Virus record (IMG/VR): IMGVR_UViG_3300028925_011754
Span: 1 to 44,209 of that record
Length of the DNA: 44,209 bases
Direction: 5' to 3' (one strand)
From: a virus
Shown here: positions 18,448 through 43,938 of the stretch, piece by piece
Numbering within the stretch: the stretch's first letter is position 1
Layout of the letters: each line of letters begins with the position of its first letter
The notes under the pieces: generated by a model
Databases searched by the model: none
Told to the model about the DNA's origin: nothing
Seen by the model: only the letters and a program-made list of their open reading frames with translations
Translations under genes and position numbers: made by a program

Positions 18448-18469
18448 TTACTAATTTATATTTTATATT

Positions 18470-19648
18470 ATGGAAGAAAATGAAAAAGTAGCTGAAGAAG
18501 TTACGCAAGAAACACAAGACACTCAAGAGGTACAAGAAATTGAAAAGCCGATTGTTGATGATTCTAAGTTTGAGTCTGCCGGAGACGATTCGGTAATCAA
18601 AATAGATATGTCAACCCCTGTTGTTGAACAAGAACAAGTTGATGAAGTTGAAGACAACGCTGAAGAGCCTGTTGTTGAAGTAGTAGAAGAACAACCAGAG
18701 CTTGAAGTTGAACCAGAAGTAGAAGTATCTGAAAGTGCTTTAGAAGAAGTCACTGAAGAAGAGATAGCAGAAACAGAAATTGCTGTTGAAGAAGCTATAG
18801 CAGAATCTGAAGCTACAGGAAAAGCATTGCCAGAAAACGTTCAAAAGTTAGTTGACTTTATGGATGAGACTGGTGGAACGTTAGAAGACTATGTTAATCT
18901 TAATAAAGATTATTCTGAGCTAGACAACATGACTGCTTTAACAGAGTATTATAAAAAAACAAAACCGCATTTAGATGCAGAAGAAATAGAGTTTCTAATT
19001 GAAGACTCGTTTAACTATGATGAAGAGCTAGACGAAGAAAGAGATGTTAGAAGAAAAAAACTAGCGCTTAAAGAGCAAGTTGCCAGCGCGAAGGCCTACT
19101 TAGACGGGCAAAAGTCTAAATATTACGAAGAAGTGAAAGCTGGGTCAAGGTTAACGCCTGAAGCTCAAAAAGCTATGAACTTCTTTAACCGATATAACAA
19201 GGAATCGGAGCAGAATGAAAAAGTAGCATCAGAAGCTAAACTTAAGTTTAACAATAAAACCGATCAGGTTTTTAATGACAAATTCAAAGGTTTTGAATAC
19301 AACGTCGGAGACAAAAAGTATAGGTTCAATGTAAAAAACGCTAAAGAGGTTAAGAGTACTCAAAGCGACATTAACAATTTTGTCAAAAAGTTTTTGGCAG
19401 AGGATAACACAATGTCAGACGCTAAGGGTTATCACAAATCTTTATTTACAGCGATGAACGCAGATACTATTGCACAACACTTTTATGAACAAGGCAAGGC
19501 TGACGCTGTCAAGGACAGTATTAGCAAGGCAAAAAACGTTAACATGGCCCCACGACAAACTCACAAGACGTTTGAAGGTGGTGGTATGAAAGTAAAAGTT
19601 TTAGGCGAAAATTCTTCTGATTTTAAGTTTAAGATTAAAAAACGATAA
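18470..19648 (+). CDS. Scaffolding protein (probable)
   Basis: 392 residues. The first 120 are extremely acidic (Glu/Val/Thr repeats) and probably disordered, about 120-330 are helical and charged, and the C-terminus is basic (DFKFKIKKR). This charge layout plus its place between portal and major capsid genes is typical of scaffolding proteins, where the basic end binds the capsid shell and the protein leaves before packaging. No protease motif is seen. A minus-strand frame at 18523-18753 is a shadow of the acidic repeats. Confidence 0.7.
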   Translation: MEENEKVAEEVTQETQDTQEVQEIEKPIVDDSKFESAGDDSVIKIDMSTPVVEQEQVDEVEDNAEEPVVEVVEEQPELEVEPEVEVSESALEEVTEEEIAETEIAVEEAIAESEATGKALPENVQKLVDFMDETGGTLEDYVNLNKDYSELDNMTALTEYYKKTKPHLDAEEIEFLIEDSFNYDEELDEERDVRRKKLALKEQVASAKAYLDGQKSKYYEEVKAGSRLTPEAQKAMNFFNRYNKESEQNEKVASEAKLKFNNKTDQVFNDKFKGFEYNVGDKKYRFNVKNAKEVKSTQSDINNFVKKFLAEDNTMSDAKGYHKSLFTAMNADTIAQHFYEQGKADAVKDSISKAKNVNMAPRQTHKTFEGGGMKVKVLGENSSDFKFKIKKR

Positions 19649-19674
19649 TTTTAACAATTTAAAACAAATTAATC

Positions 19675-21156
19675 ATGGCATTAACTCCAGGAACTAATTT
19701 GAATAGCGTACCAACTGCTCAAAAGCAAACGTTATCTTCAAATTACTTAGATTTTACAGGCGGCACGGACACAACGTGGGCGCAACAATATTTACCAGAC
19801 CTTATGGAACAAGAGGCTGAAGTGTTCGGAAACAGAACAATTTCAGGTTTCTTATCTCAAGTAGGGGCTGAAGAAGCTATGACTTCTGACCAAGTTGTTT
19901 GGTCTGAGCAGTCTAGATTACACATAGCTTTAAAAGGAACAGTTATTACAGCTGGTTCTACTAACGGTACTTTTACAGTTATATCTGACATTGACGGAAA
20001 CATTTCTGGTGACGGATTTACTGTTGCTGATCACGGTGTTAGAACTAACGACGTTGTACTTATTGCTTCTGCTGGTATCGTTACACAATGTTTAGTTGTT
20101 GACGCTGACACAGCTGTTATTCAAGTTGAACCTTATGACAAAGCTGACTTAACTGGTCACGCTACTGGCGCAAGCGCTTCTACTTTATTAGTTATTGGCT
20201 CTGAATTTGCTAAAGGTACATCTTACAACGATGGAAACTTTGCTGCATCTACTTCAAGAACTGCTAACGAGCCAACTTTCAAGTCTTTCTCTAATAAGCC
20301 GATTATTATGAAAGATTACTACGAAGTATCAGGATCTGATGCATCTCGTATTGGTTGGGTTGAAGTTTCAGGTGAAGCTGGACAAAACGGTTACTTATGG
20401 TACTTAAAAGCTGAAGCTGATACAAGATCACGTTTCACTGACTATTTAGAAATGGCAATGCTTGAAAGCGTTAAAGGTTCTAACTCAACTGTTGTTGATG
20501 CTAGTTTAGGTGCTCCTAGTGATGCTTCTGTTGGTACTGAAGGTTTATTTGCTGCTATCGAAGATAGAGGTAATGTAACTTCTGGTGTTACTGGTATTAA
20601 CGCTACTACTGATTTAGCTGAGTTTGACGCTATTTTAGCAGAGTTTGACAACCAAGGTGCTATTGAAGAAAACATGATGTTCGTAAACAGAGCTACTAGC
20701 TTAGCAATGGATGACATGCTAGCTTCTATGAATTCTTACGGTGCTGGTGGTACTTCTTACGGAGTATTCGACAACTCTGAAGACATGGCATTAAACTTAG
20801 GTTTTTCTGGATTCCGTAGAGGATCTTACGACTTCTACAAGTCTGACATGAAATACCTAAACGACAAAGGAACTAGAGGCGGTATCAACTCTGCTGCTAC
20901 TTCTGCTGCAATTAGAGGGGTGATTGTACCTGCTGGTGTATCTTCTGTATATGACCAAATGTTAGGGAAAAACATGAAGCGTCCGTTCTTACACGTACGT
21001 TACCGTGCTTCTCAAACTGACGACCGAAGAATGAAAACTTGGGTTACTGGTTCTGTTGGAGCTGCTACATCTGCTTTAGATGCAATGCAAATCCACTTTT
21101 TAACAGAAAGATGTTTAGTTACTCAAGGTGCTAACAACTTTATGTTAATGAAGTAG
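19675..21156 (+). CDS. Major capsid protein
   Basis: 493 residues, rich in Ala, Thr, Ser and Gly, with a codon set fitting high expression. It starts MALTPGTNLNSVPTAQK. The N-arm and E-loop region lies at about 1-85. About 85-170 reads like an inserted beta domain (LHIALKGTVITAGSTNG, then VVLIASAGIVTQ). The remainder, with RRMKTWVTGSVGA near the end, fits the HK97-type P and A domains. It follows the scaffold, and an intrinsic terminator with a UUCG loop comes straight after. Size and context match major capsid proteins of podoviruses of Bacteroidetes. Confidence 0.83.
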   Translation: MALTPGTNLNSVPTAQKQTLSSNYLDFTGGTDTTWAQQYLPDLMEQEAEVFGNRTISGFLSQVGAEEAMTSDQVVWSEQSRLHIALKGTVITAGSTNGTFTVISDIDGNISGDGFTVADHGVRTNDVVLIASAGIVTQCLVVDADTAVIQVEPYDKADLTGHATGASASTLLVIGSEFAKGTSYNDGNFAASTSRTANEPTFKSFSNKPIIMKDYYEVSGSDASRIGWVEVSGEAGQNGYLWYLKAEADTRSRFTDYLEMAMLESVKGSNSTVVDASLGAPSDASVGTEGLFAAIEDRGNVTSGVTGINATTDLAEFDAILAEFDNQGAIEENMMFVNRATSLAMDDMLASMNSYGAGGTSYGVFDNSEDMALNLGFSGFRRGSYDFYKSDMKYLNDKGTRGGINSAATSAAIRGVIVPAGVSSVYDQMLGKNMKRPFLHVRYRASQTDDRRMKTWVTGSVGAATSALDAMQIHFLTERCLVTQGANNFMLMK

Positions 21157-23741: not shown

Positions 23742-26700
23742 ATGGCTGAGATTAAAAGAACTTTTCTCAAAAGCAAGATGAACAAAGATCTCGACGAGAG
23801 ATTAGTTCCTAGCGGAGAATATAGAGATGCTTTAAACATAGAGGTAACTACCTCAGAAGGAGCTAACGTTGGATCTGTTCAAAACTTAAAGGGTAACATT
23901 AATACTACGGTTGTAGATCATAATGGATTTTCTTTAATATCCGGCAGTAGAGCATTGAGCTCTAACGCTACTACTATTGGCGTGCACGCTGACGATTCTA
24001 CCAAAGCTATTTACAATTTTATCCACCTAGCTCAAGATCTCGTTGCTAATGGTATATACGTGGGTGGCACTAGGTTTACTGGAGTTAAGTCAGACTGTAT
24101 TACCGAATTTAAACCTTACTTAAATCAAGACGGTGGAGGAACAAGGCCTATTGTAGTTGACGTTTTTGAAGCTAGATCAGCAGCTACACCTTTCGTAGCA
24201 GGAGATAACGACAGAATAATAAGTGGATTAGAAACAGTTTTTACAGATTCTAGTGTTCAGGGTAGTAGCAGTGTTCCAGCTGGTATAAGAGTTGGGATGA
24301 GAGTTAGAAAAGTTAACCTTGACGGAGCTGCAGTAGACTCTGATAACACTAAAATATACGTAAAGAAAATACTAGGCTCTGACGAAGCAAACGGAAAAAT
24401 AGAAGTTACTGGTGGAGTATTTATTCCTTACAACCAAGTAGATCTTGACACTGGAGTTGTTTTTAAGTTTACAGCAGAAAGAGTTTTAAATTTTGAAGCT
24501 GGCGTTAACAAAATAGAAGAAAATACAGATGGAACTCCTTCTACTAAAACTCCTGAAGATAAGATCATATCATCGATAAATCTTGTTGACGATATACTTT
24601 ACTACACGGACAACAGAACAGAACCAAAAAGAATATCTCTTACTAGATTCAGAGAAAAACTTAGTTTTATATACAAGCACTCTTCGCACATCTGGAAAGA
24701 CGTTAGCGGAACTTTCGTAAAAACACCGCTAGAAGAGTCTTTAATAACGGTAATAAGAAAAAATCCTTTAACTCCACCTGTTGTAGAAACTATAACAACC
24801 ACGAGGCAGCCTATTGCTATTAGGGTTAACAATGCGGATGACTATGGAGATTTTGGAAATATTGTAACACAAGACGAACAAGGATCAGCGACAGCTTTTA
24901 ACTATTCAGAAGCTACTACCTCTCTGGTTTTGCTACTCGATGATGAATCACCTACTGGTGTCAGCCCTTTTTCTTTTACTACGGCAGAAAACGAGGTTTT
25001 TTTACCTGACGGTAGTAATATGCCTAACGGTAACAACCTACTAGCTTTATCTGCTTCAACAGAAAGAGTAAACTGGAGAACTGGTGATGTTCTTCAACTA
25101 ACTGGAAATATTACAAACTCAACTGCGCTAGTACAAATCCATCTTTCGCACGCAAATGGAGTTGTAGACGGAGATCCTACCCAAAACTTATTTACAACGT
25201 TTAGAGTAAAGTTAATTTCTACGTCGCAAGAATACACTGGCACCGAACCAGATGAGTCTTGGTTAGCAGAAATACATGATAGAGATAAAGTGTATGAGGA
25301 TGACTTTGTTTGCTTTGCCTATAGATATAAATATGTTGACGGTGAATATTCTGCAATATCACCATACTCTAACGTAGCTTTTAAAGCTGGTTTTTACTCT
25401 TATAATCCAATAAAAGGATTTAATGGTGGTATGGTTAACAGGGCAAAAAGTATAAAAGTATCTGATTTTATACCTCCTCACACACCTAGAGACGTTGAAA
25501 AAGTTCAACTTTTATTTAAGAAAACAAACTCAGCACTAGTCAACGTTATTAGAACTTACGAAAGAAATTCTTTTGACTGGAATATTCAAGGAACTATTGG
25601 TAGTAATTACAAAGGGGCGTTAGAAATAAGCTCAGAAGTATTTGGAGCGGCGCTTGGTGAAGATCAATCACTTAGGATATTTGACAATGTTCCAGTAAAA
25701 GCTAGATCTCAAGAGTTTAGCTCTAGTAGACTACTATATGGAAACTACCACGAAAACTATAACGTACAAGATGAATCTTTTACTAACATAGATCCTAGGA
25801 TTAATTCTGGATTTGAATCTTTGTTTACTGACTTTACCGCTAGTTTTGAAAGTAGTTCAAATATGAGTTCTACGCAGCCAAGCGTTGCGCCAGAGGGTAA
25901 TGATCTGGACTCTGACTTAATGTATCAAATTAGTACTGACTTAACTCCAGGCATCCCTGGCGGTCTTCAGAGTATGACGCCTAACTTCAATCCTCAAGAT
26001 TTTACAATTAACTATGCAGAAGGAACTAACGACACGGTATCGAATCCTTTTGGTGGTCTTCCAGCAACTATAGAAGTTGATCCTTCAAATGCCTACTCTA
26101 ATGTAATACCTGGCTCAAACTTAGTTTCTTTAGGGTGGCGTTGTTCAGAAGGGCCTTACTATGAGGCTTCGGTGTCTGGAAGTTACACTTTTAAAGCTAG
26201 CGTTGACGTAAAGTTTATGTATGCACAGTTTACAGCGCTTGCTGACAAACCAGCTAGCCATAAAGGATTATTTTTTGGGCTGGCAAGAACAACCAGCAGC
26301 GGCGAATGGCTAGATCATGAAAACCTACACGGCGATAACGGCGATTATAACTCTGTTACTATAAACGAAGCCAACCCAAATATACTGCATATTGAAGCTG
26401 TAAGCGGTAACAATTTAAACACAACAGTAAATTTTTTCAACAACGGAGCAGGACCATTTCAAAGTTTTTCTTTTGAAAAAACAGTATATCTAAACGCTGG
26501 AGAAAAAGTTGCAGCTGGATTCATAGGCTCGCACAAAATACTAAGTCTTACTAACGATGCTTACTATAATACACTTTCTGGCGCAGCGTTTGATGGTATT
26601 GCTGGTAACTTTCTTAGCTTGCCAATATTGAACAACTCTTACTTTGCAGTAACAAGTTCTCCTGGTGAAGTAGACACTTTTATTGGCGCACAAGCTAAAA

Positions 26701-29700
26701 GTTCTGTAAAGTCTGATAGAGAATACCAGGTTGGTGTAGTTTATTCAGATGAGTACGGTAGAGAATCTTCTGTACTAATAGGAAATAGCAAAGGTTTAAA
26801 AATTACCAAAGAATCTAGCAATACTCAAAACAGAATTTTTGCTAAAATACAAAACAAAGCGCCTTATTGGGCTAAGCATTACAAGTTTTATTTAAAAGAA
26901 ATAGCTGAAGAGTACCACAATATTGTTCTTTACAAAGCATACAGCACAGGTGGTTTAAATGATGATAACGATGCTGATGGAAACATAAACTTTGTCTGGC
27001 TAGCTTTTAACTCTGCTGATGTAAATAAAGTTTCTAAAGGAAGTTATTTAATACACAAGAAACAACACGGTAATACAACTGCTGTTTTAGATCCTAGCGC
27101 TAAGTATAGAGTGCTAGATATTATTGGTAACGCTACTATTGATGAAGAAGAAATAAGTGTTGGTGGTTTAGACTTAGATGCTTTAGGTGCTACTTTTGAT
27201 GACGTAAATGGAAAGTTTTTTGTAAAAATAGAGACAGACAATAACTTTGTGTTGAATATAGGTGACGGAGAATCTATTACAAATGATGAAAACGTAAGCA
27301 GTGGCGCTGTGTTTGAGGTTGTAAAAACTACACCCGTAGACATAGACTTGTTTTATGAAGTAAGCCAAGCTTTTCCAATTTACTTAGACAAGAACAATGC
27401 TAGCACGATTATAAAGGCTGGTGATGTAATTACTCTTGAAGAAGGCTGGAGTCAAAACGAATTCAACAACTGGAGTTTACAAAACCTAGCCGTTGTTGCT
27501 GGCGAACAATCTGCTTACTCTTTAGGTCAAAGCAACGTGCAATTCAATGAATCTGGCTCTGTTATTGTTACTCTTCAAGAAAACTTTAATTACGCTCTTA
27601 ACGCTGGATCTGACGCTAATAAAACACTTAGATTTACTAGACCAGATGGTAGCTACTACATACTAGCTGCCACAGGTCTTAACTTAGCTGGGAATACTAT
27701 AAGAATATATCCTTTTACTCACAAGACTTCTCAGTCTAACTTTTCTAGTAAACATTTGTTAAACTTTTTTAATTGTTTTACTTTTGGAAACGGAGTAGAA
27801 TCTGATAGAGTTAGAGACGACTTTAACGCCAACGTAATATATCCTTATACTAGTGTTGGTAAAGCAAGTGGATTCAAAGCCTCTCTACCTGATGATGATT
27901 ACAAAAGAAATCACAAGAAAAACGATATAATATTTTCTCAAATAAAAAACGAAGTTGGTGGTTTGAATAGAACTAACGAGTTTTTAATGGCAGAAAACAT
28001 TGTAAAAAGACTAAGCTCAGAGTACGGTAGTATACAAAAGTTGTTTACTAGAAACACAGACGTAATTGCTTTCTGTGAAGGTAAAGTCTTAAAAATACTA
28101 GCAAACAAAGATGCTTTGTTTAACGCTGACGGAAACTCTCAATTATTGTCTTCAACAAATGTTTTAGGTCAAGCAGTACCTTTTACGGCTGACTATGGCA
28201 TATCTAAAAACCCAGAATCATTTGCGGTAGACGAGTTTAGATCATACTTTGTCGATAAAGACAGAGGAGCAGTACTAAGGCTTTCTAGAGACGGTATAAG
28301 CGCTATATCAGACTTTGGTATGAAGGACTTTTTTAGAGACAATTTAAAAGACTCTGTAGTTTGCATTGGTAGTTATGACAGAAGAAAAGAAGAGTATAAT
28401 CTAACGATACACACATACGACTCTCCTAATCCTTCTAACAAAAACGTATACACACTATCATACAGTGAAAGCGCTAAAGGATGGATAAGCTTTAAGTCTT
28501 GGATAAAAGAGTCTGGAGTTTCTTTAAGCAATGATTACTACACTTTTAAAAATAGCAAGATGCACCTGCATCATGTTAATAGCAAGTTTCACAATAATTT
28601 TTATGGAACACAGCAAAAGTCTACTATAACGCCTATATTCAACGATTCTAGTGGTACAGTAAAGCACTTTGACACTGTTAGCTACGAAGGAACTCAAAGC
28701 AAGGTTATTAAGTTTACAAATGAAGTTGTTGACGGCGTTACTTATAACGATGGAGAATATTATAATGCTGTTGCCAAAAACGGATGGCACATAGAATCTA
28801 TAGTAACAGACTTACAGGAAGGTTATATAGACGAGTTTATTGACAAAGAAAACAAATGGTTTAATTATATAAAAGGAATATCTACTTCTCACACAAACCT
28901 TGCTGACGGAGATGTTACGAGCAACTTAGACTTTAACGAAATAAACATGCAAGGTATAGGTGACCTAAGTGCCAATGCAACGTCTAACGTTGGTGGTTTT
29001 AGCGAAGGGCACGATATTAACGTAAGTGTATCAAACTCCGACAACGCACAATGGTCTTCTGCCGGCTATGAGATTTACAATCAGTCTTCATACCCAGGAA
29101 CAGCAACATTTGTTATAATTCCAAATGCTGGATACGCGGTTGGAGCTGCAAACTTCAGCATTACCAACAGCTTACCCATTTGGATTACTAGTGTTTCTTT
29201 CTCTGATTCTACTATTGCAGGAACTGCTGACAATACTGTTATTGGTACAATAACTTTCTCAGGACAAACTCTTTCTTCAGATGTTTCTCATAGTTTACAA
29301 ATAGACACTGTTGCCGCACCAACGGCTATGCTATGGACAGGAAATATAAATATTTATGGTTCAGGAATAGGTCAACAGGGTGGTGAAACGTTTTCGCTAA
29401 CATTGAACGATGACTTTGTTGGTCAATTAATAGGACCAACAATAGAAAACGGTTATGCTTCTTATTTCGTAATAGCTTACATTTCCAGTCAAGCTAATAA
29501 TTTTTCACCTTTACTAAAGTTTTCTGCAAACAGCGGCGTTAACTACTTTTATCCTTTAAGTAACTTGTTGAGCACTTCTGTTAGCCCTATAAGCGAGGCT
29601 GAAAATTATAACTTTGAGCAACAAGTGCCAGGATCACTTAACGCTATTGCGGCTACAACTCAAGGCGTAGAAATAGAGTACGCATACCAAGGCGAAAACG

Positions 29701-32042
29701 TAGGTGTTGATCAAGACAACATAATAAGCATATATACTAACTCTCAGCAAGTTCAATGCGAGTTTAACAGCTATATTCCAGACGCTAGCAATGAAAATAC
29801 GCCAACCGCTACATTTGACGACAACGGTGGGTTTAACAATGTAGGATTAGTAACTAATGTTGGAACTCCATCTGTAAAAGTTGTTGCTACAGACGATGAT
29901 CTTGATTGGCTTACACCACAAACAATAACAAACTACATACAACAAGGCGGTGGCCCTGTATTAGGACAGGTTACCTCTGAAGCATGTAGCTTTACTCTTT
30001 CGCAAAACAACGGAAACACTAGAGATTTAGAACTACATCTTTTTTCAGCTATAAACAATACTAATACTCCAGATGACATACTAGCTATAAAACAACAAGA
30101 AGCTGATGTTATAAACGCTGGAATACAAATACAAAGCATTATAAACGAAGTTGGAAACCCTGACTATGGTCAAGTTTACGACAATTTAAACGGCACTACT
30201 TTTGGCTCAGGCGTTCCTGGCCCAAAACTTACGCAAGAGGCGTATCCACCTTTTATGCTGAGGGTTGTAGCAGACTGCAATGTGCAAGCAGGTGATGGTT
30301 TTTCTGATGCTAACTTCACAATAACATATTCTGATCCAGCAAATCCTTTTGCTCAGTCTAACGGACCAATACCAGTATATGGACCTGTTGTACCACATAG
30401 TGGAAACTTAAATGTTTCTTTTACAGATAACAATGGATCTTACGCTCATGCTCCTTTGATTTTACTGGAAAACGAAACAACTCAAGATAGAACTCTAACT
30501 ATTACTGTTACGCATCCAAGCGATAGCTCAGTAAGTAAAACAATAATTGTAACTCAAAAAGCGGCTTATAGTTCCGCTGATAACACTTTAAGATTTTTAA
30601 ACAACATCGGTGGTTTGGCTAACTCAAATACCTCACCTAACTTTGATGAGCTAGAACAGTTTTTTAACGATGTTGATCCTGAAGAAACAGTAGAAATATC
30701 TGCGAATGGTGGCTACAAAGAGTTATATATTAAAATTCCCAACGAAGACTATCAATTTATACAAGAAAATGCAACAGCAAATAATGAGCTTGCAGGGTCA
30801 GCTCTTCCTTCTGTCTCTCTACATGAAGCGCAGCTAGCTGGAAGCTACAATCCAGATGAGGGTGTACCTGGATGGTTGCAAAGCCCTGGTATAGATGAAA
30901 ACGGTAATCCAGTATTTAGTGGAGGTGATGAATACTACGTTACAGAAACTAATGTAGGTACATTTAGCTTAATACCTTTTTTCAATGGTTTTGTTCAAAA
31001 CTATTACGGAATAAACTTAGCTCAGTACTATTATGAATTTAATTTTACTGAAAACAACTATATTATACCAGGAAACTCTGTTCCTGATACTAGAAAGTTT
31101 GAGATTAGAGGTAAGCATCCTTTTAACAACACTGGGCAATACGATAGTAAAATAAAGATTAAACAACCAGCAACACCTTACGCTCAGTTTTTATCTATAG
31201 AAGATATAGTGGCTAGTGACACTGATAATAACGGAAACTATGTGGTAAATATTCCTGGCGTTGCAAACAATGGAACACCTCAATTTGGACAATGGTTAAA
31301 TGGGCAAAATATTTATTCCGATGAAGACTACACTGCAGGAAACGTTCCAGCTGGCCTTATTAGCTACGCGCTTTTTGAGCAAACTACACCTACTTGGCTT
31401 ATTGAATCAAGCGTAAACTTTAACTCTGGTACATCAACAACGCAAGATTATAACTGCCAAGTTGTTGTTCAGCCTAACTTTACAGGATTTACTAGAGAGG
31501 TTAACGTTAAAGTTGTAAACGCTAACTCTACTTTTGACTTCAACATAAATGGTCCGGCTATTGACGATACGTTTCAGCAATCAAGAAAAATAATAATACC
31601 TGGCGCTATAGGATTTTTGTATTTAGGAGATCAAAACCTTTCGCCTTTCATAGTCCAAAATTTTCTTCACACCGGAACTAACAACGATTTTTTAGTTAAC
31701 ATGAATGAATCTGAGGAAATACCGCCAAAGTCGTTGCCTCAATCCCAAGGAAACGTAAGCATGAGCACTGTAGTAAACTTTAACGGTCCAGTTCCTTACG
31801 TAGCAAACATTAAAATAAAAGAACAAGGTGAAGAAGATTATACTTTTATTACAGATGAAGCTGAAGCTACTTGGATTAGCGTTTTACCAAATATTTCAAC
31901 GCCAACGCAAAATGAAGTATCTCACAAGTTAAAAGTATCGTTTACTGGAACCGGTGGAGATCCAGGTTCAATATTAAAATTTGATGTTATTCACGGGGCA
32001 AATCAAAACTTAGTAAAATCTTACACTATATTTAGAGCATAA
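23742..32042 (+). CDS. Giant tail protein: stabilisation module plus BACON-like repeats
   Basis: 2766 residues. The N-terminus KMNKDLDERLVPSGEYRDAL at about 13-32 is a signature I associate with tail stabilisation proteins of crAss-like and marine Bacteroidetes phages (P22 gp10-like role). The module appears to extend to about residue 1640 and includes YQVGVVYSDEYGRESSVL near 995. From about 1720 on there are Ig- or BACON-like beta repeats, with DWLTP near 2053 and strand ends such as VTQKA (near 2270), IKIKQPA (near 2471) and IKIKEQG (near 2691). BACON domains are thought to bind glycans. A single chain may thus bridge the tail hub and receptor binding. The gene is one intact frame. Confidence 0.75.
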   Translation: MAEIKRTFLKSKMNKDLDERLVPSGEYRDALNIEVTTSEGANVGSVQNLKGNINTTVVDHNGFSLISGSRALSSNATTIGVHADDSTKAIYNFIHLAQDLVANGIYVGGTRFTGVKSDCITEFKPYLNQDGGGTRPIVVDVFEARSAATPFVAGDNDRIISGLETVFTDSSVQGSSSVPAGIRVGMRVRKVNLDGAAVDSDNTKIYVKKILGSDEANGKIEVTGGVFIPYNQVDLDTGVVFKFTAERVLNFEAGVNKIEENTDGTPSTKTPEDKIISSINLVDDILYYTDNRTEPKRISLTRFREKLSFIYKHSSHIWKDVSGTFVKTPLEESLITVIRKNPLTPPVVETITTTRQPIAIRVNNADDYGDFGNIVTQDEQGSATAFNYSEATTSLVLLLDDESPTGVSPFSFTTAENEVFLPDGSNMPNGNNLLALSASTERVNWRTGDVLQLTGNITNSTALVQIHLSHANGVVDGDPTQNLFTTFRVKLISTSQEYTGTEPDESWLAEIHDRDKVYEDDFVCFAYRYKYVDGEYSAISPYSNVAFKAGFYSYNPIKGFNGGMVNRAKSIKVSDFIPPHTPRDVEKVQLLFKKTNSALVNVIRTYERNSFDWNIQGTIGSNYKGALEISSEVFGAALGEDQSLRIFDNVPVKARSQEFSSSRLLYGNYHENYNVQDESFTNIDPRINSGFESLFTDFTASFESSSNMSSTQPSVAPEGNDLDSDLMYQISTDLTPGIPGGLQSMTPNFNPQDFTINYAEGTNDTVSNPFGGLPATIEVDPSNAYSNVIPGSNLVSLGWRCSEGPYYEASVSGSYTFKASVDVKFMYAQFTALADKPASHKGLFFGLARTTSSGEWLDHENLHGDNGDYNSVTINEANPNILHIEAVSGNNLNTTVNFFNNGAGPFQSFSFEKTVYLNAGEKVAAGFIGSHKILSLTNDAYYNTLSGAAFDGIAGNFLSLPILNNSYFAVTSSPGEVDTFIGAQAKSSVKSDREYQVGVVYSDEYGRESSVLIGNSKGLKITKESSNTQNRIFAKIQNKAPYWAKHYKFYLKEIAEEYHNIVLYKAYSTGGLNDDNDADGNINFVWLAFNSADVNKVSKGSYLIHKKQHGNTTAVLDPSAKYRVLDIIGNATIDEEEISVGGLDLDALGATFDDVNGKFFVKIETDNNFVLNIGDGESITNDENVSSGAVFEVVKTTPVDIDLFYEVSQAFPIYLDKNNASTIIKAGDVITLEEGWSQNEFNNWSLQNLAVVAGEQSAYSLGQSNVQFNESGSVIVTLQENFNYALNAGSDANKTLRFTRPDGSYYILAATGLNLAGNTIRIYPFTHKTSQSNFSSKHLLNFFNCFTFGNGVESDRVRDDFNANVIYPYTSVGKASGFKASLPDDDYKRNHKKNDIIFSQIKNEVGGLNRTNEFLMAENIVKRLSSEYGSIQKLFTRNTDVIAFCEGKVLKILANKDALFNADGNSQLLSSTNVLGQAVPFTADYGISKNPESFAVDEFRSYFVDKDRGAVLRLSRDGISAISDFGMKDFFRDNLKDSVVCIGSYDRRKEEYNLTIHTYDSPNPSNKNVYTLSYSESAKGWISFKSWIKESGVSLSNDYYTFKNSKMHLHHVNSKFHNNFYGTQQKSTITPIFNDSSGTVKHFDTVSYEGTQSKVIKFTNEVVDGVTYNDGEYYNAVAKNGWHIESIVTDLQEGYIDEFIDKENKWFNYIKGISTSHTNLADGDVTSNLDFNEINMQGIGDLSANATSNVGGFSEGHDINVSVSNSDNAQWSSAGYEIYNQSSYPGTATFVIIPNAGYAVGAANFSITNSLPIWITSVSFSDSTIAGTADNTVIGTITFSGQTLSSDVSHSLQIDTVAAPTAMLWTGNINIYGSGIGQQGGETFSLTLNDDFVGQLIGPTIENGYASYFVIAYISSQANNFSPLLKFSANSGVNYFYPLSNLLSTSVSPISEAENYNFEQQVPGSLNAIAATTQGVEIEYAYQGENVGVDQDNIISIYTNSQQVQCEFNSYIPDASNENTPTATFDDNGGFNNVGLVTNVGTPSVKVVATDDDLDWLTPQTITNYIQQGGGPVLGQVTSEACSFTLSQNNGNTRDLELHLFSAINNTNTPDDILAIKQQEADVINAGIQIQSIINEVGNPDYGQVYDNLNGTTFGSGVPGPKLTQEAYPPFMLRVVADCNVQAGDGFSDANFTITYSDPANPFAQSNGPIPVYGPVVPHSGNLNVSFTDNNGSYAHAPLILLENETTQDRTLTITVTHPSDSSVSKTIIVTQKAAYSSADNTLRFLNNIGGLANSNTSPNFDELEQFFNDVDPEETVEISANGGYKELYIKIPNEDYQFIQENATANNELAGSALPSVSLHEAQLAGSYNPDEGVPGWLQSPGIDENGNPVFSGGDEYYVTETNVGTFSLIPFFNGFVQNYYGINLAQYYYEFNFTENNYIIPGNSVPDTRKFEIRGKHPFNNTGQYDSKIKIKQPATPYAQFLSIEDIVASDTDNNGNYVVNIPGVANNGTPQFGQWLNGQNIYSDEDYTAGNVPAGLISYALFEQTTPTWLIESSVNFNSGTSTTQDYNCQVVVQPNFTGFTREVNVKVVNANSTFDFNINGPAIDDTFQQSRKIIIPGAIGFLYLGDQNLSPFIVQNFLHTGTNNDFLVNMNESEEIPPKSLPQSQGNVSMSTVVNFNGPVPYVANIKIKEQGEEDYTFITDEAEATWISVLPNISTPTQNEVSHKLKVSFTGTGGDPGSILKFDVIHGANQNLVKSYTIFRA

Positions 32043-35483: not shown

Positions 35484-38400
35484 ATGTTTGAACTAAACGG
35501 CGTAGAGCTAACATCACAAGACATAAAAAATTATGCTCAAGAAAACGATATGTCTTTTACAGAAGGCTATGAGTTTCTCTTAGGCAAAGGTCTTAAAGAG
35601 AAAAGCGTAGAGTCATCTGTTGGCCTTATGGAAAACTTGTTTCCACAAATAGACCCTGTTGAGGAAATAGAAGATGTTTCTTCTGTTAAAGACGCTGGCG
35701 TTTGGGCAATGACAGGTATTGTAGACGCTATGGATGACCTTGGGAATATTTTTACTGGTAGCGTGCAAAGAGCTAAGCTACTAGATCCAATAAGTAGAAT
35801 TAAAAAAGGTACAGCAACAGACGAAGATATTCAACAAGTTCTTGAGTTTAACAAGAATCCAGACATCGGCATGACTGACGAAATACTTAAGCAGGATTTT
35901 GAAAGAGAACTAATAGCTGAAAAGTATGGTAAACCAGCCGCGTTCTTTATGACGTTTTTTAAAGAAGGTACTGCGCAGAAATTTCTTCAAAGCACATTTC
36001 TTCAGGTTGGCGCTCTTGCAACAGAAAGAGGTAGAGCACAAGCCGCCAAAGGAGCTGGTATAGGAGTTGGTACAGCGGCATCGTTAAACCTTGTCCCTGG
36101 TTTAGCGTTTTTACCAGAAGAAATAGCTTCAATACCTATAATGGCGCTTTCAGGAGGTTATGCCGGGATAAGCCAAGCTTTAGAAGTTCAACTTACATTG
36201 TCAGAGCTTATTACCGAAGAGCTTTTAGAAAAAGGTATAAATGCTAACGACGCAACAGTAGAAGACGTTAGAGCCATAATGGAAGATGAAGAGGTGTTTA
36301 GCGATATTAGAAAGAGAGCCGTAAGAAGAGGTAACACTATTGGAACAATAGATGGTTTTACTGGTATTTTTCTGAAAGGAGCTATTAGAAAAGGTAGAGG
36401 CGTTACTAAGCGTAGTATACCTACTAGAAGCAGAACGTCAGGATATTTAGCAGGAAGTGCGTTTGAAACAGGTATGGGTTTAACCAGTGAATTAGCTGGG
36501 CAAATAGCAGGTGAACAAGACTTAGACATTACAGCTATACTTGAAGAAGGTTTTATAGATAAAACCATGGCGCCGGTAAGCCTTGCGTCTAACCTTTACA
36601 AAGGTCCTGCTACTTACAGCATAAACGGCAAAGAAGGTGATAGTGGAAAAATGTCTGCTAAAAAGTTTTTTAAATACGTAAATAGCTTGTCAGACACAGA
36701 GCTTTACGAGCAAATGCCTTTGTTTAAAGTAGAAAACGATAAGCTTGCTAGCAACATATTGAACCAAAGAGTTTACGATGTAGCTGTTGATATGGAAGTT
36801 GACACTAGAATTAACGATCCTAAAAAAAGAGCTGAAGCAATAAAACTTCAAAAAGAGCTTAATAAAATAAAAGACAAAAAAGGTGCTACTTACGATAAAA
36901 GAAGAAGCAAGTTAAAAGAAAAAATCAACGCAATAGCAGACGAGTTTGCTGACAATGAAGTTGACGTTACTAAAGAACAACAAAATGAAGCTATTAAGCT
37001 TGAAAGAAAAGACAACGTAAAAAAGTTAATAAAAAGCGAATCTGAAAAGCTAAAAGAAATGGGTAAAGACCTTGGAGGTCTTGATCTAGACGCTTACGAT
37101 ACGGAACAAGAAATGGTTGACGCCTTTGTAGCTGCAGGCGGTAACATAAACGAAATAAGTAGAGACGCTGACGGTAAGGTAACACAAGAAGCTTTGATAC
37201 TAGGCGAAAAAATGTTTATCAACATAGATCGCGCTGCTGCAATAGAATCTATAAATCCAGCATCTCACGAGGTACTACACAGAGTAATAGGTAACTCATT
37301 TGCAAGCCTTGATGAAGCTACTAGGCTTAAAGTTGCTGGAGGCTTTTTCAACACAATGACTAAGTCACAAAGAAAGTTTGTTACACAAAGACTTAAAGAT
37401 GATTACAATGTAGACACTGTTGATGATAGCTTTTTCAAAACTAATCAGGCAGAAGAAATATTTACAGTGTTTGCTCAAGGTATAAGAGATAATGATATTA
37501 CTTTTGATGAAGGATTGTTTAGTAAACTAGGTCTTATACTACAGGAGTTTCTTAGAAAGTCACCTATATTCAAGGGTAAGTTTAAAGGAGAATTTACCAA
37601 CGGTAAACAAGTGTACAATTTCTTAAAACAGTATAATCAAGACGTCGAGACTGGAAAGTTTAGTGAAAGAGTAAAAGACTTTGCCGCTGTAGACAGAGCT
37701 GACGAAACTAAAACCGCAGCGTCTAACAGACAGATTTCTGATGAAGCTAAAAATATACAAGCTGAAGTTGATGCGTTAGGTAAAAAAGCTGATGGTAGCA
37801 AGATGACTAAGGCAGAGTATGACGCTGGTCCTAACATCAAAGCATACGAAGAACTTATTTCTAAAGGCAAGTTAAGAACATTAATTAAAAACCAACTTGT
37901 AAAGCAAGGTATAGACATACAAGCAGAAGACGCTAATGTTAATGGAATACCTTTGCAAGAGTTTTTAGAAGATGTTGAAGGAAGGCTTACTACGGAAATA
38001 TTAAATTTTAATCCAGATAAAGAAACTACAACTCAAGGTAAGTTTGGACTTTCTGGTTTTATAAACCAAAGAATAATATTTAGAACTGGTGACGTTGCTA
38101 AAACTGGTAAGAAGAGAGTTGATACTAAGTCGCTAGATAAAGAGCAAGAGTCTGCAGGCGGAAAGTCTATGGCTGACAACATACAAGATAAAGAAGATGC
38201 TAGCTTAGAAGACTTAGAAACAGAAGATTTATCTGCTCAAGCGCAGCAAGACAAGAAGATAAAAGAAGATAAAGGAGAAGCTGGCATATTTTCTAAGCTT
38301 AGAAAAAGACTAACCTTAAAAGGACAACCTATACTAGGTGAAAGAACTAACTCTGAGTCTATTGTAAATACTATACTAGTAGAAGTAAGAAGAATATTTG

Positions 38401-41400
38401 TTTCAGAAAGAACACCTTTGTCTAGCGATAGTTTTTTAGCTAACTTAGAAAAGTCTTTAGACGCAAGATTATTTAAGCTTATAAAAAATGCTTTAGGTAC
38501 TAAAAAAGCTTACGATGACTTTATAATAGAAAACGCTTCTGAAATAGCTAATCTACCTACTAAGCACTTAGTTGCTTTAGAAAGAGAGGTTAAAGACGAT
38601 GCTGATCGTATGTTCACTGAGTTTGACAAAAAGCTTACGTCAAAAGAAGATGTTCAAAGAGCTGTAGATCAAGGACTATTAGACAAAGATGCTTTAACTA
38701 AAATAGACAAAGGACAAGCTGTTAATCTTTACAGAAAGAAAAACAACATAAACCTTGACAACGTGGTTAAGTTTTTTGACGCACCACCTGTAAACCCTAA
38801 GACTAGTAAGCGCAGTGGTTTAAAAGGTACTAGAAAAGATACATTGGCTAGAAGATTTGCTTTTGAGTTAGCTCAAGATGCTTTACCAGAGATCGCTAGC
38901 ATGCCTGAGGTTGCAGATTACAGAAGTTTAATAGATAATGCTGAGTTTGGTAAGGTTCAAATAAACGAGCTCTCTAGAATGATTAATAGAGAGCCTAGGT
39001 TAATGTTTTCAGAAACAAAAGCTTCAGGTAAAAGAGCGCCTCTTACTAACACACAAAAAGCGCTACAGAAAGGCTCAAATATAAGCGTCCCTGTTCAAAA
39101 TTATCTTGAAAAATTATTGAATGGCGAGCTTAAACAAAGTGAAATTGACGAAAATGACATAAATCAACTATTAGCTAACAAGTTTTTTTTAGAAAGACCG
39201 TATGAAAGAATTTCAGACAAAGGAATACTTAAAGACTTGCTAAGTGAAATAACAAAATTAAGAAAGAAAGGTTTTAAAACGCAGAAGATTTACAAAATGT
39301 ACGAGCAGCACTTTATTGCTTTAGCTAATGCCGTAATGCAAGAAAACTCTGCTATTTCCGCTGATAAGGTTGTTAGAGAAGGAGGTAGACCTGATCTTAC
39401 GTTTATATACGATAACAGCGGCACTATAGTTGGTGTTGAAATAAAAATGGATACAGCTAGAGGAGTTGCTCAAACAGCCTCATTTAAGCTTGTTAACGAT
39501 AAGTTTGAAGTTTCTTTTTCAAACCCTAATCCTCAAGACACACAGGCTGAACAAGATCTTCAAAATAAAATGTCAGAAAGGCTTGCGCAATTGCTTGAAG
39601 GCATTAGCTTTGACAATGAAAACCAAGGCGTAAGCACTGATGACGCTAATAAATTAAAGCTGATTTCACACACGTTCTTGAAAGATATGCGCGTTGAGAT
39701 TACTGCTGCTTACATTGCGGCGCACTACAACATGAAAAACTTACCAGAAACATTTATAAACATAGGTAACGCTGGCTTGTTCTATATGCTAGAGAATGTT
39801 GTAAAACCTGAACAATCAAAGTTCTACAAAGATAAAGTTAAAAAGCTTGTTAGCGAGGGTATAAGCGAGGCAGACGCTCAAAAACAAGCTCGCAAAGAGT
39901 TTGTAGAAACAAGAGAAATAACGATGAGAGTAGCTGAAGCCTTAAATATACCTGAGTTAAAGTCAAATCAAAAATTATACTTAGGCGCTAGACTAATTAT
40001 TAGTGACGCTAGAAAAACAAAAGGCAACACGCACAGAGTTACAGGTAAGATAGAGCCTCAAATAGATTCTAAAAACTTTGACAAGTCAACGTTTGGAAAT
40101 CTTTCTAATCCTAAAGACATGGCTAGGTTTGTTGAAGCTTTAAACAATGACTCAGTTAAGTACGGTTCAAAGTCTTCTAACAGAAACCTTCAAAAAGCGG
40201 CAATGAATGCTAGGCTAGTAGACAAAAACACTAAAGCCAAAGGTATTAGTATATGGGACTTTGATGACACCCTAGCTCAGACTAAATCTAATGTACTTTT
40301 CACTGATCCTAACGGCAAGAAAGGAAAGCTTAATGCAGAAGACTTTGCTAAGAAAGGAGCTGATCTATTGTCAAAAGGATACGTGTTTGACTTTTCAGAG
40401 TTTAGCAAGGTAACAGATGGTACGCCTGGGCCTTTCTTCAAAAAGGCTATTGACAGAATTAAAAAGTTTGGAAATAAAGATAACTTCATATTAACAGCAA
40501 GACCTGCCGACGCTGCTGGTCCTATTAAGCAGTTTTTAGACAGCTTAGGTTTAGACATACCTTTAGAAAATATAACTGGACTAACAAACTCTACTCCGCA
40601 AGCAAAAGCTCTTTGGATAGTAGACAAGGTTGCTGATGGATATAATGATATTTATTTTGCAGACGATGCTTTAGCTAATGTTCAAGTTGTTAAAGACGTG
40701 CTAGAACAGTTTGACATAAAGTCTGACGTGCAACAAGCTAAAATAAAAGCTAGTAATAGAAAAAGCGTAGACTTTAACAAGATACTAGAAAGAAAAACTG
40801 GTGTTCCTTTTGACGAAACATTTTCTAGAGCAAGAGCTATAAAGAGAGGTAAGGATAAGAATAAATTTCAATTGTTTGTTCCTCCAAGCGCTGAGGATTT
40901 TGTAGGACTAATATACTACATGATTGGCAAAGGCAGACAAGGAGAACAAGACTTTCAGTTTTTAAAGAAAAACTTAATAGATCCTTTTGCTAGAGCTAGT
41001 AGAGAGGTGGATATGGCTAGACAGTCGATAGTGAACGATTGGAACAACGTTAGAAAAAAACATAAAGCCGCGGTTAAAAAGCTAAGTAAAAAAATACCAG
41101 GCATGGATTACACTTATGATGATGCTATTAGAGTGTTTTTGTGGGAGATTACTGGTCAAGAAATACCTGGCTTAGATAAAAAAGAAATTAGAGAGCTAAG
41201 AGACGTTGTAGTAAAAAACATGGGGCTAATAAAGTTTGCTATGGATCTTAAGCTTATAGTACAACTAAAAGATGGATACGTTAAGCCCGGTGAATCATGG
41301 ACGGCTGGTAGTATAGCGTCAGATGTTAACGAAGCTGTAAACGACATTAGAAGAAGTGAGTTTTTACAAGAATGGTCACAAAACATTAAAGAGCTATTTA

Positions 41401-42881
41401 CCGAAGAGAACTTAAACAAACTTGAAGCATTGTTTGGAACTACATACAGACAGTCGCTTGAAGACATTCTTTATAGAATGGAAAAAGGTAAAAATAGACC
41501 TAAAGGAACAGACGCTGCTACAAATAGATTTATGAATTGGTTAGCTGGGTCTGTTGGTGCTATAATGTTTTTTAACGTTAAGTCTGCTGTTCTTCAAAAT
41601 ATATCTATATTAAACTACATAAACTACACAGATAATAACCCTATTCAAGCAGCTAAAGCTTTTGCTAATCAAAAGCAATACTGGGCAGACTTTGCTTTTA
41701 TATTTAATTCTGACTTTTTAAAACAAAGAAGATCTGGCCTTAACACACACATCGAGTCTAACGAGCTAGCTTCAATAGCTGCAAACGCGACAAATAAAGC
41801 TAGAGCAATACTAGCTTACTTGCTTAAAATAGGTTTTACACCTACTCAAATAGCAGATAGCTTTGCAATTTCAGTGGGAGGAGCAACATTTTATAGAAAC
41901 AGAGTAAAAAGATTTGTTAGTGAAGGCATGAGTCAAGCAGAAGCTGAAACACAAGCTTTTGCAGAGTTTAGAGAAACAACAGAAGAGTCTCAACAGTCTG
42001 CTAGACCTGATAGAATATCGAAGCAACAAGCTTCAAGCTTGGGAAGGTTATTGTTAAACTTTCAAAACTATCCAATGCAGCAAAACAGAATAATAAAGAA
42101 AACTGTTTTAGATATGAAAAACGGTAGAGGAGACATGAAGCAACATGTTTCTAGGTTATTGTACTATGGATTTGCTCAAAACATAATATTTTTATCTCTT
42201 CAAAACGCTTTATTTGCAATGCTGTTTGAGGAAGCAGAAGATGATGACGAGCTTTTAGACACTAAGACTGAAAGAATATTTAACGGTGTGGCAGACACGC
42301 TGCTTAGAGGATCTGGAATAGTTGGTGGAGTAATAGCTACAGTTAAGAATACTTTGTTAATGGCAGACAAGCAGCTAAAGAAAGGTAGAAAAGGTGAAGG
42401 CGCTAAAGTACTGATAGAAGTGGCAAATCTATCACCATCGGTAGGTAGCAAATTAAGAAAGATATATAAAGGATACAAAAGTGCAGATTGGGACAGAAAC
42501 GCTATATCAGAAATGCCTTTATACGATTCTAGAAATCCTATATGGAGTATATCTGCGCCAGTTATTGAAGCCACTACAAACGCACCTGTTGACAGAATTG
42601 TAAGAAAAATAAACAATATAAGACTAGCTCTAGACTCCAACTACTCTGCAATGGCTAGATTATCAATGTTTCTTGGTGTTAGTCCTTACGAGCTAGGTAT
42701 AAACCCAAGTAAAGATGTTAAAGACGCTAAGCAAAGAGCAAAAGACAAAAATAAAGGCAAAGGTAATCAGTCTACTTCTACTAAGAAAGGAGAAAAAAGA
42801 TGCAAAGCTGCTACTAGCTCTGGCCCACGATGTAAAAACATGACGAACAACAAAAACGGTAGGTGTTATGCTCACCAATAA
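35484..42881 (+). CDS. Giant multi-domain ejection protein, T7 gp16-like role
   Basis: 2465 residues. Visible elements in order: FELNGVELTSQDIKN at the N-terminus; a hydrophobic Gly/Ala-rich region at about 190-235; HEVLH at 595-599, a zinc-protease motif; a PD-(D/E)XK-like nuclease core with Pro1303-Asp1304 and Glu1319-Ile-Lys1321; a HAD phosphatase with DFDDT (Asp1592, Asp1594), ILTARP near 1671 and ADD at 1726-1728; hydrophobic segments near 2020 and 2240; and a C-terminal zinc knuckle with CKAATSSGPRC and CYAH. I infer that it is carried in the capsid and injected first, bringing several enzymatic activities into the host. Each motif is visible, but activity is not proven. Confidence 0.72.
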   Translation: MFELNGVELTSQDIKNYAQENDMSFTEGYEFLLGKGLKEKSVESSVGLMENLFPQIDPVEEIEDVSSVKDAGVWAMTGIVDAMDDLGNIFTGSVQRAKLLDPISRIKKGTATDEDIQQVLEFNKNPDIGMTDEILKQDFERELIAEKYGKPAAFFMTFFKEGTAQKFLQSTFLQVGALATERGRAQAAKGAGIGVGTAASLNLVPGLAFLPEEIASIPIMALSGGYAGISQALEVQLTLSELITEELLEKGINANDATVEDVRAIMEDEEVFSDIRKRAVRRGNTIGTIDGFTGIFLKGAIRKGRGVTKRSIPTRSRTSGYLAGSAFETGMGLTSELAGQIAGEQDLDITAILEEGFIDKTMAPVSLASNLYKGPATYSINGKEGDSGKMSAKKFFKYVNSLSDTELYEQMPLFKVENDKLASNILNQRVYDVAVDMEVDTRINDPKKRAEAIKLQKELNKIKDKKGATYDKRRSKLKEKINAIADEFADNEVDVTKEQQNEAIKLERKDNVKKLIKSESEKLKEMGKDLGGLDLDAYDTEQEMVDAFVAAGGNINEISRDADGKVTQEALILGEKMFINIDRAAAIESINPASHEVLHRVIGNSFASLDEATRLKVAGGFFNTMTKSQRKFVTQRLKDDYNVDTVDDSFFKTNQAEEIFTVFAQGIRDNDITFDEGLFSKLGLILQEFLRKSPIFKGKFKGEFTNGKQVYNFLKQYNQDVETGKFSERVKDFAAVDRADETKTAASNRQISDEAKNIQAEVDALGKKADGSKMTKAEYDAGPNIKAYEELISKGKLRTLIKNQLVKQGIDIQAEDANVNGIPLQEFLEDVEGRLTTEILNFNPDKETTTQGKFGLSGFINQRIIFRTGDVAKTGKKRVDTKSLDKEQESAGGKSMADNIQDKEDASLEDLETEDLSAQAQQDKKIKEDKGEAGIFSKLRKRLTLKGQPILGERTNSESIVNTILVEVRRIFVSERTPLSSDSFLANLEKSLDARLFKLIKNALGTKKAYDDFIIENASEIANLPTKHLVALEREVKDDADRMFTEFDKKLTSKEDVQRAVDQGLLDKDALTKIDKGQAVNLYRKKNNINLDNVVKFFDAPPVNPKTSKRSGLKGTRKDTLARRFAFELAQDALPEIASMPEVADYRSLIDNAEFGKVQINELSRMINREPRLMFSETKASGKRAPLTNTQKALQKGSNISVPVQNYLEKLLNGELKQSEIDENDINQLLANKFFLERPYERISDKGILKDLLSEITKLRKKGFKTQKIYKMYEQHFIALANAVMQENSAISADKVVREGGRPDLTFIYDNSGTIVGVEIKMDTARGVAQTASFKLVNDKFEVSFSNPNPQDTQAEQDLQNKMSERLAQLLEGISFDNENQGVSTDDANKLKLISHTFLKDMRVEITAAYIAAHYNMKNLPETFINIGNAGLFYMLENVVKPEQSKFYKDKVKKLVSEGISEADAQKQARKEFVETREITMRVAEALNIPELKSNQKLYLGARLIISDARKTKGNTHRVTGKIEPQIDSKNFDKSTFGNLSNPKDMARFVEALNNDSVKYGSKSSNRNLQKAAMNARLVDKNTKAKGISIWDFDDTLAQTKSNVLFTDPNGKKGKLNAEDFAKKGADLLSKGYVFDFSEFSKVTDGTPGPFFKKAIDRIKKFGNKDNFILTARPADAAGPIKQFLDSLGLDIPLENITGLTNSTPQAKALWIVDKVADGYNDIYFADDALANVQVVKDVLEQFDIKSDVQQAKIKASNRKSVDFNKILERKTGVPFDETFSRARAIKRGKDKNKFQLFVPPSAEDFVGLIYYMIGKGRQGEQDFQFLKKNLIDPFARASREVDMARQSIVNDWNNVRKKHKAAVKKLSKKIPGMDYTYDDAIRVFLWEITGQEIPGLDKKEIRELRDVVVKNMGLIKFAMDLKLIVQLKDGYVKPGESWTAGSIASDVNEAVNDIRRSEFLQEWSQNIKELFTEENLNKLEALFGTTYRQSLEDILYRMEKGKNRPKGTDAATNRFMNWLAGSVGAIMFFNVKSAVLQNISILNYINYTDNNPIQAAKAFANQKQYWADFAFIFNSDFLKQRRSGLNTHIESNELASIAANATNKARAILAYLLKIGFTPTQIADSFAISVGGATFYRNRVKRFVSEGMSQAEAETQAFAEFRETTEESQQSARPDRISKQQASSLGRLLLNFQNYPMQQNRIIKKTVLDMKNGRGDMKQHVSRLLYYGFAQNIIFLSLQNALFAMLFEEAEDDDELLDTKTERIFNGVADTLLRGSGIVGGVIATVKNTLLMADKQLKKGRKGEGAKVLIEVANLSPSVGSKLRKIYKGYKSADWDRNAISEMPLYDSRNPIWSISAPVIEATTNAPVDRIVRKINNIRLALDSNYSAMARLSMFLGVSPYELGINPSKDVKDAKQRAKDKNKGKGNQSTSTKKGEKRCKAATSSGPRCKNMTNNKNGRCYAHQ

Positions 42882-42900
42882 TCGTGTAATAATTAATACT

Positions 42901-43938
42901 ATGACACTAAGAATTATTATATTCTTGCTTTTAGTTTTATCTGCTAGTAAATCTGAAGCACAAATTAAAAAAGCTTTTAAGTTTTCTACGTTCTACGTAG
43001 CAGCTAACGGAGGAACTTCTTTGTCTGACAGAGATGTATACTCTGTGGATAATAGCATGCTAGTGTATGATACTATATTTACTCCTTTTGACTACTCACT
43101 AACAATGGGTATAAGGAAGATCAAGAGATTTCCATACGAAGCTAGAACTCAGTTTAAAGACGGTTTAGAAACTTCGTTTTCTGATGCTGCTAGCGTTGGA
43201 TTATCTCCGTTTGAGTATTTGTTCGAGCTAGACTATAGAAGACAAGAAGGCGTAGAGTACTTTGATCAAAACCACTTTTTAAGATACGTTAAGCCATTAT
43301 GGTTAGCTAAAGTAGAGTATTTAAAAGAAGGATTTGCAGATATAGAGTACTTTGAGTCTACGGCTAGACTAAGAATAAACTCTAAGAAGAAACTATCTTT
43401 TAATATTGGCGCTGTAAATAGACTAGCAGAGCCATACGGATACGATCCTTTAGAAGAGTGGACTATGTCTACTGGTAATGTTCACTACACGCAATTGGCT
43501 ATTCAGGAGGGATATAGCATTGATGTGTTTCAATCAGAGTATAAAGATCCGAACGGAAACATTGTTGCGAATAACTCTGCTGTTTGGGAAGAGGTAGTAA
43601 TACCTACTGTATTGAAAAATTATGTAGATAAAAAAAGAAATCAATTGCCACAACAACTACAAAACTCGCTAGTTATTGGCTTTGACTTCTATCATTATAA
43701 GAAAAACTTCTGGTTACATTCATGGGGTAATTTAATGCCATATCATTATGATAATGGCAATCAGTTTTCATATCACAACTTTAACGATGGAGAACAGTGG
43801 AACGATTACTCTGGTGGTTTAATATTTGGCTATAAGCTAAACAAAAGCCTAGGATGTTTCATAGAGGGTAAATATAACAAGTACTGGAATAAAGAGTGGT
43901 ACGATTTTAAAGCAGGGATAAATTACATAATATTTTAA
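42901..43938 (+). CDS. Secreted beta-barrel-like protein
   Basis: 345 residues from the ATG at 42901. An upstream start at 42868 would overlap the previous gene and hide the signal sequence. MTLRIIIFLLLVLSASKSEA is a clear signal peptide, with probable cleavage before Gln21. The mature part is beta-rich, with many Tyr, Phe and alternating strands (FDFYHYKKNFWLHSWGN), and ends YIIF with a terminal aromatic residue, typical of outer-membrane beta-barrels. I recall close relatives in marine phage contigs. A phage-encoded outer-membrane protein could block superinfection or aid release. Alternatively it is a secreted beta-rich virion-related protein. Confidence 0.65.
   Translation: MTLRIIIFLLLVLSASKSEAQIKKAFKFSTFYVAANGGTSLSDRDVYSVDNSMLVYDTIFTPFDYSLTMGIRKIKRFPYEARTQFKDGLETSFSDAASVGLSPFEYLFELDYRRQEGVEYFDQNHFLRYVKPLWLAKVEYLKEGFADIEYFESTARLRINSKKKLSFNIGAVNRLAEPYGYDPLEEWTMSTGNVHYTQLAIQEGYSIDVFQSEYKDPNGNIVANNSAVWEEVVIPTVLKNYVDKKRNQLPQQLQNSLVIGFDFYHYKKNFWLHSWGNLMPYHYDNGNQFSYHNFNDGEQWNDYSGGLIFGYKLNKSLGCFIEGKYNKYWNKEWYDFKAGINYIIF

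Follow-up and report, generated by a model that had tools for sequence, protein, structure and literature searches.

Does a phage gene that looks like part of a structural cassette in fact encode a package of enzymes that enters the host with the DNA? This question is raised by one very large gene in IMG/VR virus record IMGVR_UViG_3300028925_011754 (positions 1 to 44,209; this whole stretch of 44,209 nucleotides is referred to as the window). The original prediction, made from the letters of a single sequence, had described the gene product as an ejection protein with protease, nuclease and phosphatase-like modules, hydrophobic segments and a C-terminal zinc knuckle, which, if injected with the DNA, would perhaps act against host defences or nucleoid proteins. 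The gene and the parts of its product are as follows.

35484-42881, + strand: gene for a giant, polyvalent-type, probable virion protein (2465 aa; 76 related loci)
35484-37103, + strand: residues 1-540, variable N-terminal region with no catalytic assignment (conservation profile, hydropathy)
37149-37761, + strand: residues ~556-759, predicted zincin (gluzincin-type) metalloprotease domain (HExxH at 595-599, third ligand E658)
37944-39053, + strand: residues ~821-1190, conserved module with a GTRKD-type motif (26 of 75 homologues by profile)
39111-39863, + strand: residues 1210-1460, exchangeable cassette of predicted PD-(D/E)XK nuclease type (E1274, D1304, E1319, K1321)
40203-40805, + strand: residues 1574-1774, predicted HAD-superfamily domain (motifs I-IV, Foldseek, dN/dS 0.02)
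40806-42773, + strand: residues ~1775-2430, constant all-helical C-terminal module with the motif FANQKQYW (72 of 72 loci; Foldseek against BFVD)
42801-42875, + strand: residues 2440-2464, CCCH zinc knuckle, DUF5763-like (pattern in 31 of 72 family sequences)

The giant gene and its family

The region from 35484 to 42881 is a single intact reading frame on the + strand, with an ATG start and no internal stop in its 2465 codons, and a check of the sequence placed every motif that had been named at its reported residues. A peptide search found relatives encoded on 366 IMG/VR stretches, from which 76 loci were retained; six query peptides were used, one of which lies inside the PD-(D/E)XK cassette, so that carriers of this cassette are over-sampled. 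The complete homologous reading frames range from ~2250 to 4300 aa, and conservation across the family is strongly modular. The giant gene is under purifying selection, with a dN/dS relative to the homologue L001 of 0.15 overall and 0.02 in the HAD domain, and the same comparison indicates purifying selection on every module.

In Pfam, NCBIfam, PHROG and PDB sequence searches the full-length giant protein gave chance-level matches and none that was significant; weak Pfam matches to LptE and DUF885 fell below the cut-off and were dismissed. A tblastn search of cultured phages with the giant protein and with the C-terminal modules of two homologues gave no match. The matches in genome contigs were exclusively to MAG contigs of mixed taxa, which are most likely mis-binned phage contigs and were left out of host assignment. 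The family is solid and is undescribed in the open literature searched, while injected multi-enzyme phage proteins are themselves an established concept.

Hydrophobic stretches do exist in the protein, as had been proposed, among them a weakly hydrophobic Gly/Ala-rich one at residues 192-210, but strong membrane-type segments are not evident: the hydrophobicity is modest, with five 19-residue windows scoring 1.3-1.5 on the Kyte-Doolittle scale and no clear transmembrane helix among them. The module at residues 821-1190 is strongly conserved where it is present. At the extreme C-terminus the proposed zinc knuckle is in place as C2440-x9-C2450-x10-C2461-x2-H2464. The Pfam family DUF5763 matches 9 of 49 members, with a best value of 7.8e-7, and does not match the protein of the window itself.

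Predicted catalytic domains and the exchangeable slot

The HEVLH sequence at residues 595-599, which had been taken for a protease motif, is unlikely to have arisen by chance, since HExxH occurs in only 0.4% of composition-preserving shuffles. In an alignment of 54 sequences, most of them 11–38% identical to that of the window, the sole invariant residues are His 595, Glu 596, His 599 and Glu 658. The HExxH motif is found in 69 of 75 homologues, and five of the other six are truncated contigs; the remaining one, L051, lacks it despite having a long reading frame. Models of the giant protein were of moderate confidence overall (pLDDT 66-67, pTM 0.35-0.49). In the AF2 model HExxH lies within a confident helix (block pLDDT 80-90) and Glu 658 in a later helix, and the order of secondary structure elements fits a zincin. 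Weak Pfam matches include the Zn-peptidase families Peptidase_M78, SprT-like and DUF5700. A Foldseek search with the whole model of residues 545-1560 recovered neither a zincin nor a PD-(D/E)XK fold. The prediction of a zincin at residues ~556-759 is based on signature residues and secondary structure order.

The sequences DFDDT at 1592-1596 and ADD at 1726-1728 had suggested a HAD core. A motif of the form D[FILV]D[DG]T occurs in 2% of composition-preserving shuffles, which makes chance an unlikely source of DFDDT, and the homologues strengthen the assignment: motif I is found in 75 of 75, and in an alignment of 43 sequences motif I (Asp 1592, Asp 1594 and Thr 1596), motif II (Thr 1671), motif III (Lys 1708) and motif IV (Asp 1727 and Asp 1728) are all invariant. 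Foldseek with a 906-aa AF2 model (pLDDT 67) matched class C acid phosphatases and other HAD proteins with probabilities of 0.96-0.99 and E-values of 0.2-0.6. Both lines support residues 1574-1774 as a HAD domain with a Rossmann-like core, phosphatase-type by prediction.

The third proposed activity started from a much weaker pattern, PDLTF at 1303 with VEIK at 1318-1321. Because 76% of composition-preserving shuffles contain a PD..ExK pattern, a nuclease call from a single sequence is unsafe and the motif as first reported could be due to chance. What rescues the call is the alignment of 16 carriers, most of them at ~20% identity, in which Glu 1274, Asp 1304, Glu 1319 and Lys 1321 are the sole invariant columns and form the PD-(D/E)XK quartet in its canonical order. 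In the AF2 model the helix 1269-1286 bears Glu 1274, Asp 1304 lies just before the strand 1305-1309 and ExK follows the strand 1315-1318, an order compatible with a PD-(D/E)XK core at moderate model confidence; a NOV_C match was found in two members at an E-value of 0.02. As with the zincin, the prediction of a nuclease cassette at residues 1210-1460 is based on signature residues and the order of helices and strands.

The predicted zincin and HAD domains are near-universal in the family and the PD-(D/E)XK cassette is exchanged. Residues 1565-2430 were found in 72 of the 72 loci compared, a further conserved region, that of the zincin, spans residues ~560-740, and the PD-(D/E)XK region was detected by profile in 18 of 75 homologues. 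On a tree of the C-terminal module the carriers and non-carriers are interleaved, with eight changes, at least seven of them forced by well-supported branches; a carrier (L029) and a non-carrier (L052) are near sisters. Such repeated gain or loss indicates that the slot between the zincin and HAD parts is exchanged among relatives. Nine loci (L019, L028, L035, L036, L042, L052, L058, L067 and L070) have other slot contents with an EHxxP motif ~110-135 residues ahead of the start of the HAD module.

The original prediction of several catalytic modules in one polypeptide thus stands to the extent that three catalytic-type domains and a zinc knuckle are present together and are conserved in homologues, whereas two of the folds were missed by Foldseek. 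Catalytic residues that varied among homologues would have spoken against it, and those of the zincin, PD-(D/E)XK and HAD domains proved to be invariant.

Genomic position and kinship with polyvalent proteins

Two groups of virion genes lie upstream of the giant gene.

13794-21156, + strand: TerL, portal, a 392-aa protein and the probable major capsid protein (phrog_6681, phrog_6547, phrog_13704; synteny with Cellulophaga, Flavobacterium and Maribacter podoviruses)
23742-32042, + strand: gene for a 2766-aa virion structural protein (phrog_14478)

The TerL, portal and capsid genes and those that follow are syntenic with the corresponding genes of Cellulophaga phages phi38:1 and phi19:3, Flavobacterium Elemovirus, Maribacter Panino and MW202828, and the virus is best explained as a podovirus related to phages of Bacteroidota. 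In those cultured phages a giant gene ends the structural cassette, and in the related loci the giant gene is on the same strand, in conserved order, directly after the virion genes, which supports the original reading of its product as a virion protein. Phi18:3 gp123, phi19:3 gp129, phi38:1 gp101 and Elemovirus gp18 occupy the same place as the window protein in the syntenic cassette. The first of these is a structural protein by MS/MS, as stated in its GenBank record, and Elemovirus gp18 contains a zincin by profile (E-value 3.6e-8). At the sequence level only the zincin is homologous to the giants of cultured phages, in Elemovirus gp18 and, weakly, in MW202828; the giants of phi38:1 and phi19:3 lack HExxH, and HAD motif I is present in none of the cultured-phage giants examined. 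The C-terminal module has no sequence homology to these counterparts, being too diverged, and for this reason the MS/MS result for phi18:3 transfers only by position and by weak fold similarity. By this analogy the window protein itself is probably packaged in the virion.

That fold similarity comes from a Foldseek comparison of the HAD-helical model with BFVD. The first four matches were to close homologues from viruses, one of which bears the name UDP-N-acetylglucosamine kinase; beyond these the matches were to PolyVal ART, LPD-containing and MuF C-terminal proteins with E-values of ~1e-10 to 1e-3, and to S0A015 of phi19:3 with an E-value of 6e-4 and a low TM-score (0.18). Judging from its length, S0A015 would be part of phi19:3 gp129, the 936-residue half fitting the 1871-aa protein. 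In Pfam, LPD support consisted of one weak LPD14 match, with none above the cut-off.

Polyvalent proteins combine several enzymes, have their genes close to virion genes and enter the host together with the DNA; in those from phages and plasmids the zincin is the hub domain and is believed to carry out processing of the chain (Iyer et al. 2017, PMC5512222). The window protein resembles them in combining the signatures of several unrelated enzymatic domains within a single chain, in the location of its gene beside late and virion genes, in the predicted zincin metallopeptidase hub and in a HAD-helical C-terminus that matches a fold of the large-polyvalent-domain type. It differs in its HAD and PD-(D/E)XK domains, in the pairing of an unchanging HAD-helical chassis with a slot whose content is swapped, and in the lack of a Pfam LPD above the cut-off; the terms haloacid, REase and phosphatase are absent from the main text of PMC5512222. 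The virion RNA polymerase of N4 is likewise a giant protein; it is injected and contains a zincin as well as a helical region for injection (PMC5512222), whereas the window protein has no recognised RNA polymerase module. The best reading of these sequence and model comparisons is that the giant protein fits the polyvalent class and adds predicted HAD and PD-(D/E)XK domains to it.

Three further genes of the window were recorded. A 356-aa reading frame at 42868-43938 (+) overlaps the 3' end of the giant gene. The N-terminus of its product resembles a signal peptide, in some relatives that of a lipoprotein, and the conserved C-terminus, EGKYNKYWNREWYDFKxGINYIIF, suggests an outer-membrane beta-barrel. 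Homologues are found in 55 of 76 related loci, in most cases immediately after the giant gene, with no match in Pfam or in cultured phages; possibly it serves in receptor masking or superinfection exclusion. A GroEL-like chaperonin is encoded at 8171-9745 (+; Cpn60_TCP1, 9.7e-49), as it is in Elemovirus and MW202828, both of which also have a GroES annotation. A PAP2-superfamily phosphatase-like protein is encoded at 5252-5794 (+; 4.1e-6, just under the Pfam cut-off).

Proposed role of the giant protein

We favor, with a probability of roughly 0.72, a virion-packaged polyvalent protein built on a HAD-helical chassis, with a zincin that would release its parts and an exchangeable cargo slot. 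The constant C-terminal module, consisting of the HAD enzyme and the long helical region, would serve for packaging and ejection; the zincin would cleave the polyprotein, or a host target, so releasing parts; and the slot between zincin and chassis would hold the cargo, here the putative PD-(D/E)XK nuclease. The pieces would enter with the DNA and act before the phage genes are expressed: the nuclease would attack host or competing DNA or RNA, and the HAD enzyme would dephosphorylate nucleic-acid ends, nucleotides or phosphoproteins. This reading is preferred because what stays invariant in alignments of deeply diverged sequences is the set of catalytic residues, because the HAD-helical model matches viral polyvalent proteins as well as S0A015, because the zincin is a polyvalent hub (PMC5512222) shared with the counterpart Elemovirus gp18, because the gene occupies a late position in the syntenic structural cassette, where the phi18:3 counterpart is a virion protein by MS/MS, because the PD-(D/E)XK slot was gained or lost at least seven times, and because every module is under purifying selection.

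A narrower form of this explanation, which we consider unlikely, makes the HAD domain an end-healing enzyme, delivered with the genome, that would repair or reverse cuts made by the RNA- or DNA-cleaving defences of the host. The spacing of HAD motifs I and II is 77-80 residues in 70 of 75 homologues and five have insertions; in two of the latter a P-loop kinase lies between the motifs.

Nested P-loop kinase (AAA_33/Zeta_toxin): residues 2065-2348 of the giant protein in L025 and residues 2022-2299 in L067

The best values among the members scanned were 1.5e-10 for AAA_33 and 5.9e-9 for Zeta_toxin. The polynucleotide kinase profile phrog_415 is the best phage profile in 38 of 43 members, and there are weak PDB matches to the PNKP phosphatase (E-value 0.76). 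However, the kinase occurs in only 2 of 75 homologues and may be a Zeta-type sugar-nucleotide kinase, and phrog_415 also matches in 14 of 14 control genomes and is thus a generic HAD profile. Class C acid phosphatases, which are the top Foldseek HAD matches, and polynucleotide kinase-phosphatases have motifs I-IV and the core fold in common with the window HAD, whereas the latter is embedded in a giant phage protein, and the PNK3P (PF08645) and HAD_SAK_1 profiles gave no match in 14 records. Identification of the domain as a PNKP phosphatase through phrog_415 was for these reasons rejected as proof.

Less probable still is a purely structural or ejection-channel protein in which the zincin would have no role beyond maturation of the protein at assembly, and the nuclease-like and HAD domains would be degenerate or serve in binding. 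Long helical regions and a gene that closes the structural cassette are what such a protein would have, and DdrB of P1 is processed before packaging (PMC5512222), but the catalytic residues of the HAD domain and nuclease cassette are invariant where present, with the dN/dS of 0.02 in the HAD domain, and cassette exchange is unexpected for a structural channel. An early-expressed, non-virion multi-enzyme protein lying downstream of the structural genes by chance is very improbable: no virion proteomics was found for this phage or its close relatives, but the conserved order and strand directly after the virion genes, the structural annotation of positional counterparts, including gp123 of phi18:3 by MS/MS, and the fold kinship with virion polyvalent proteins all speak against it.

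What began as a guess from motifs in a single sequence has become a family whose catalytic residues are invariant and in which a cassette slot can be recognised. A tentative extension is that this is a widespread, previously undescribed family delivered by the virion, with a HAD phosphatase and a helical tail as its constant delivery chassis. The enzymes carried would be exchangeable (a PD-(D/E)XK nuclease, a nested kinase for nucleotides or polynucleotides, other cassettes); the zincin would release them, and they would work during the first minutes of infection, among other things in end-healing of nucleic acids cut by host defence systems. The family also extends the polyvalent proteins to predicted HAD and PD-(D/E)XK domains and ties them to a cultured, MS/MS-characterised group of phages that is open to tests of packaging and ejection. 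With one chassis common to all and a slot that differs between relatives, comparison of slots over hundreds of metagenomic phages may offer a route to new early-infection enzymes of Bacteroidota-type phages.
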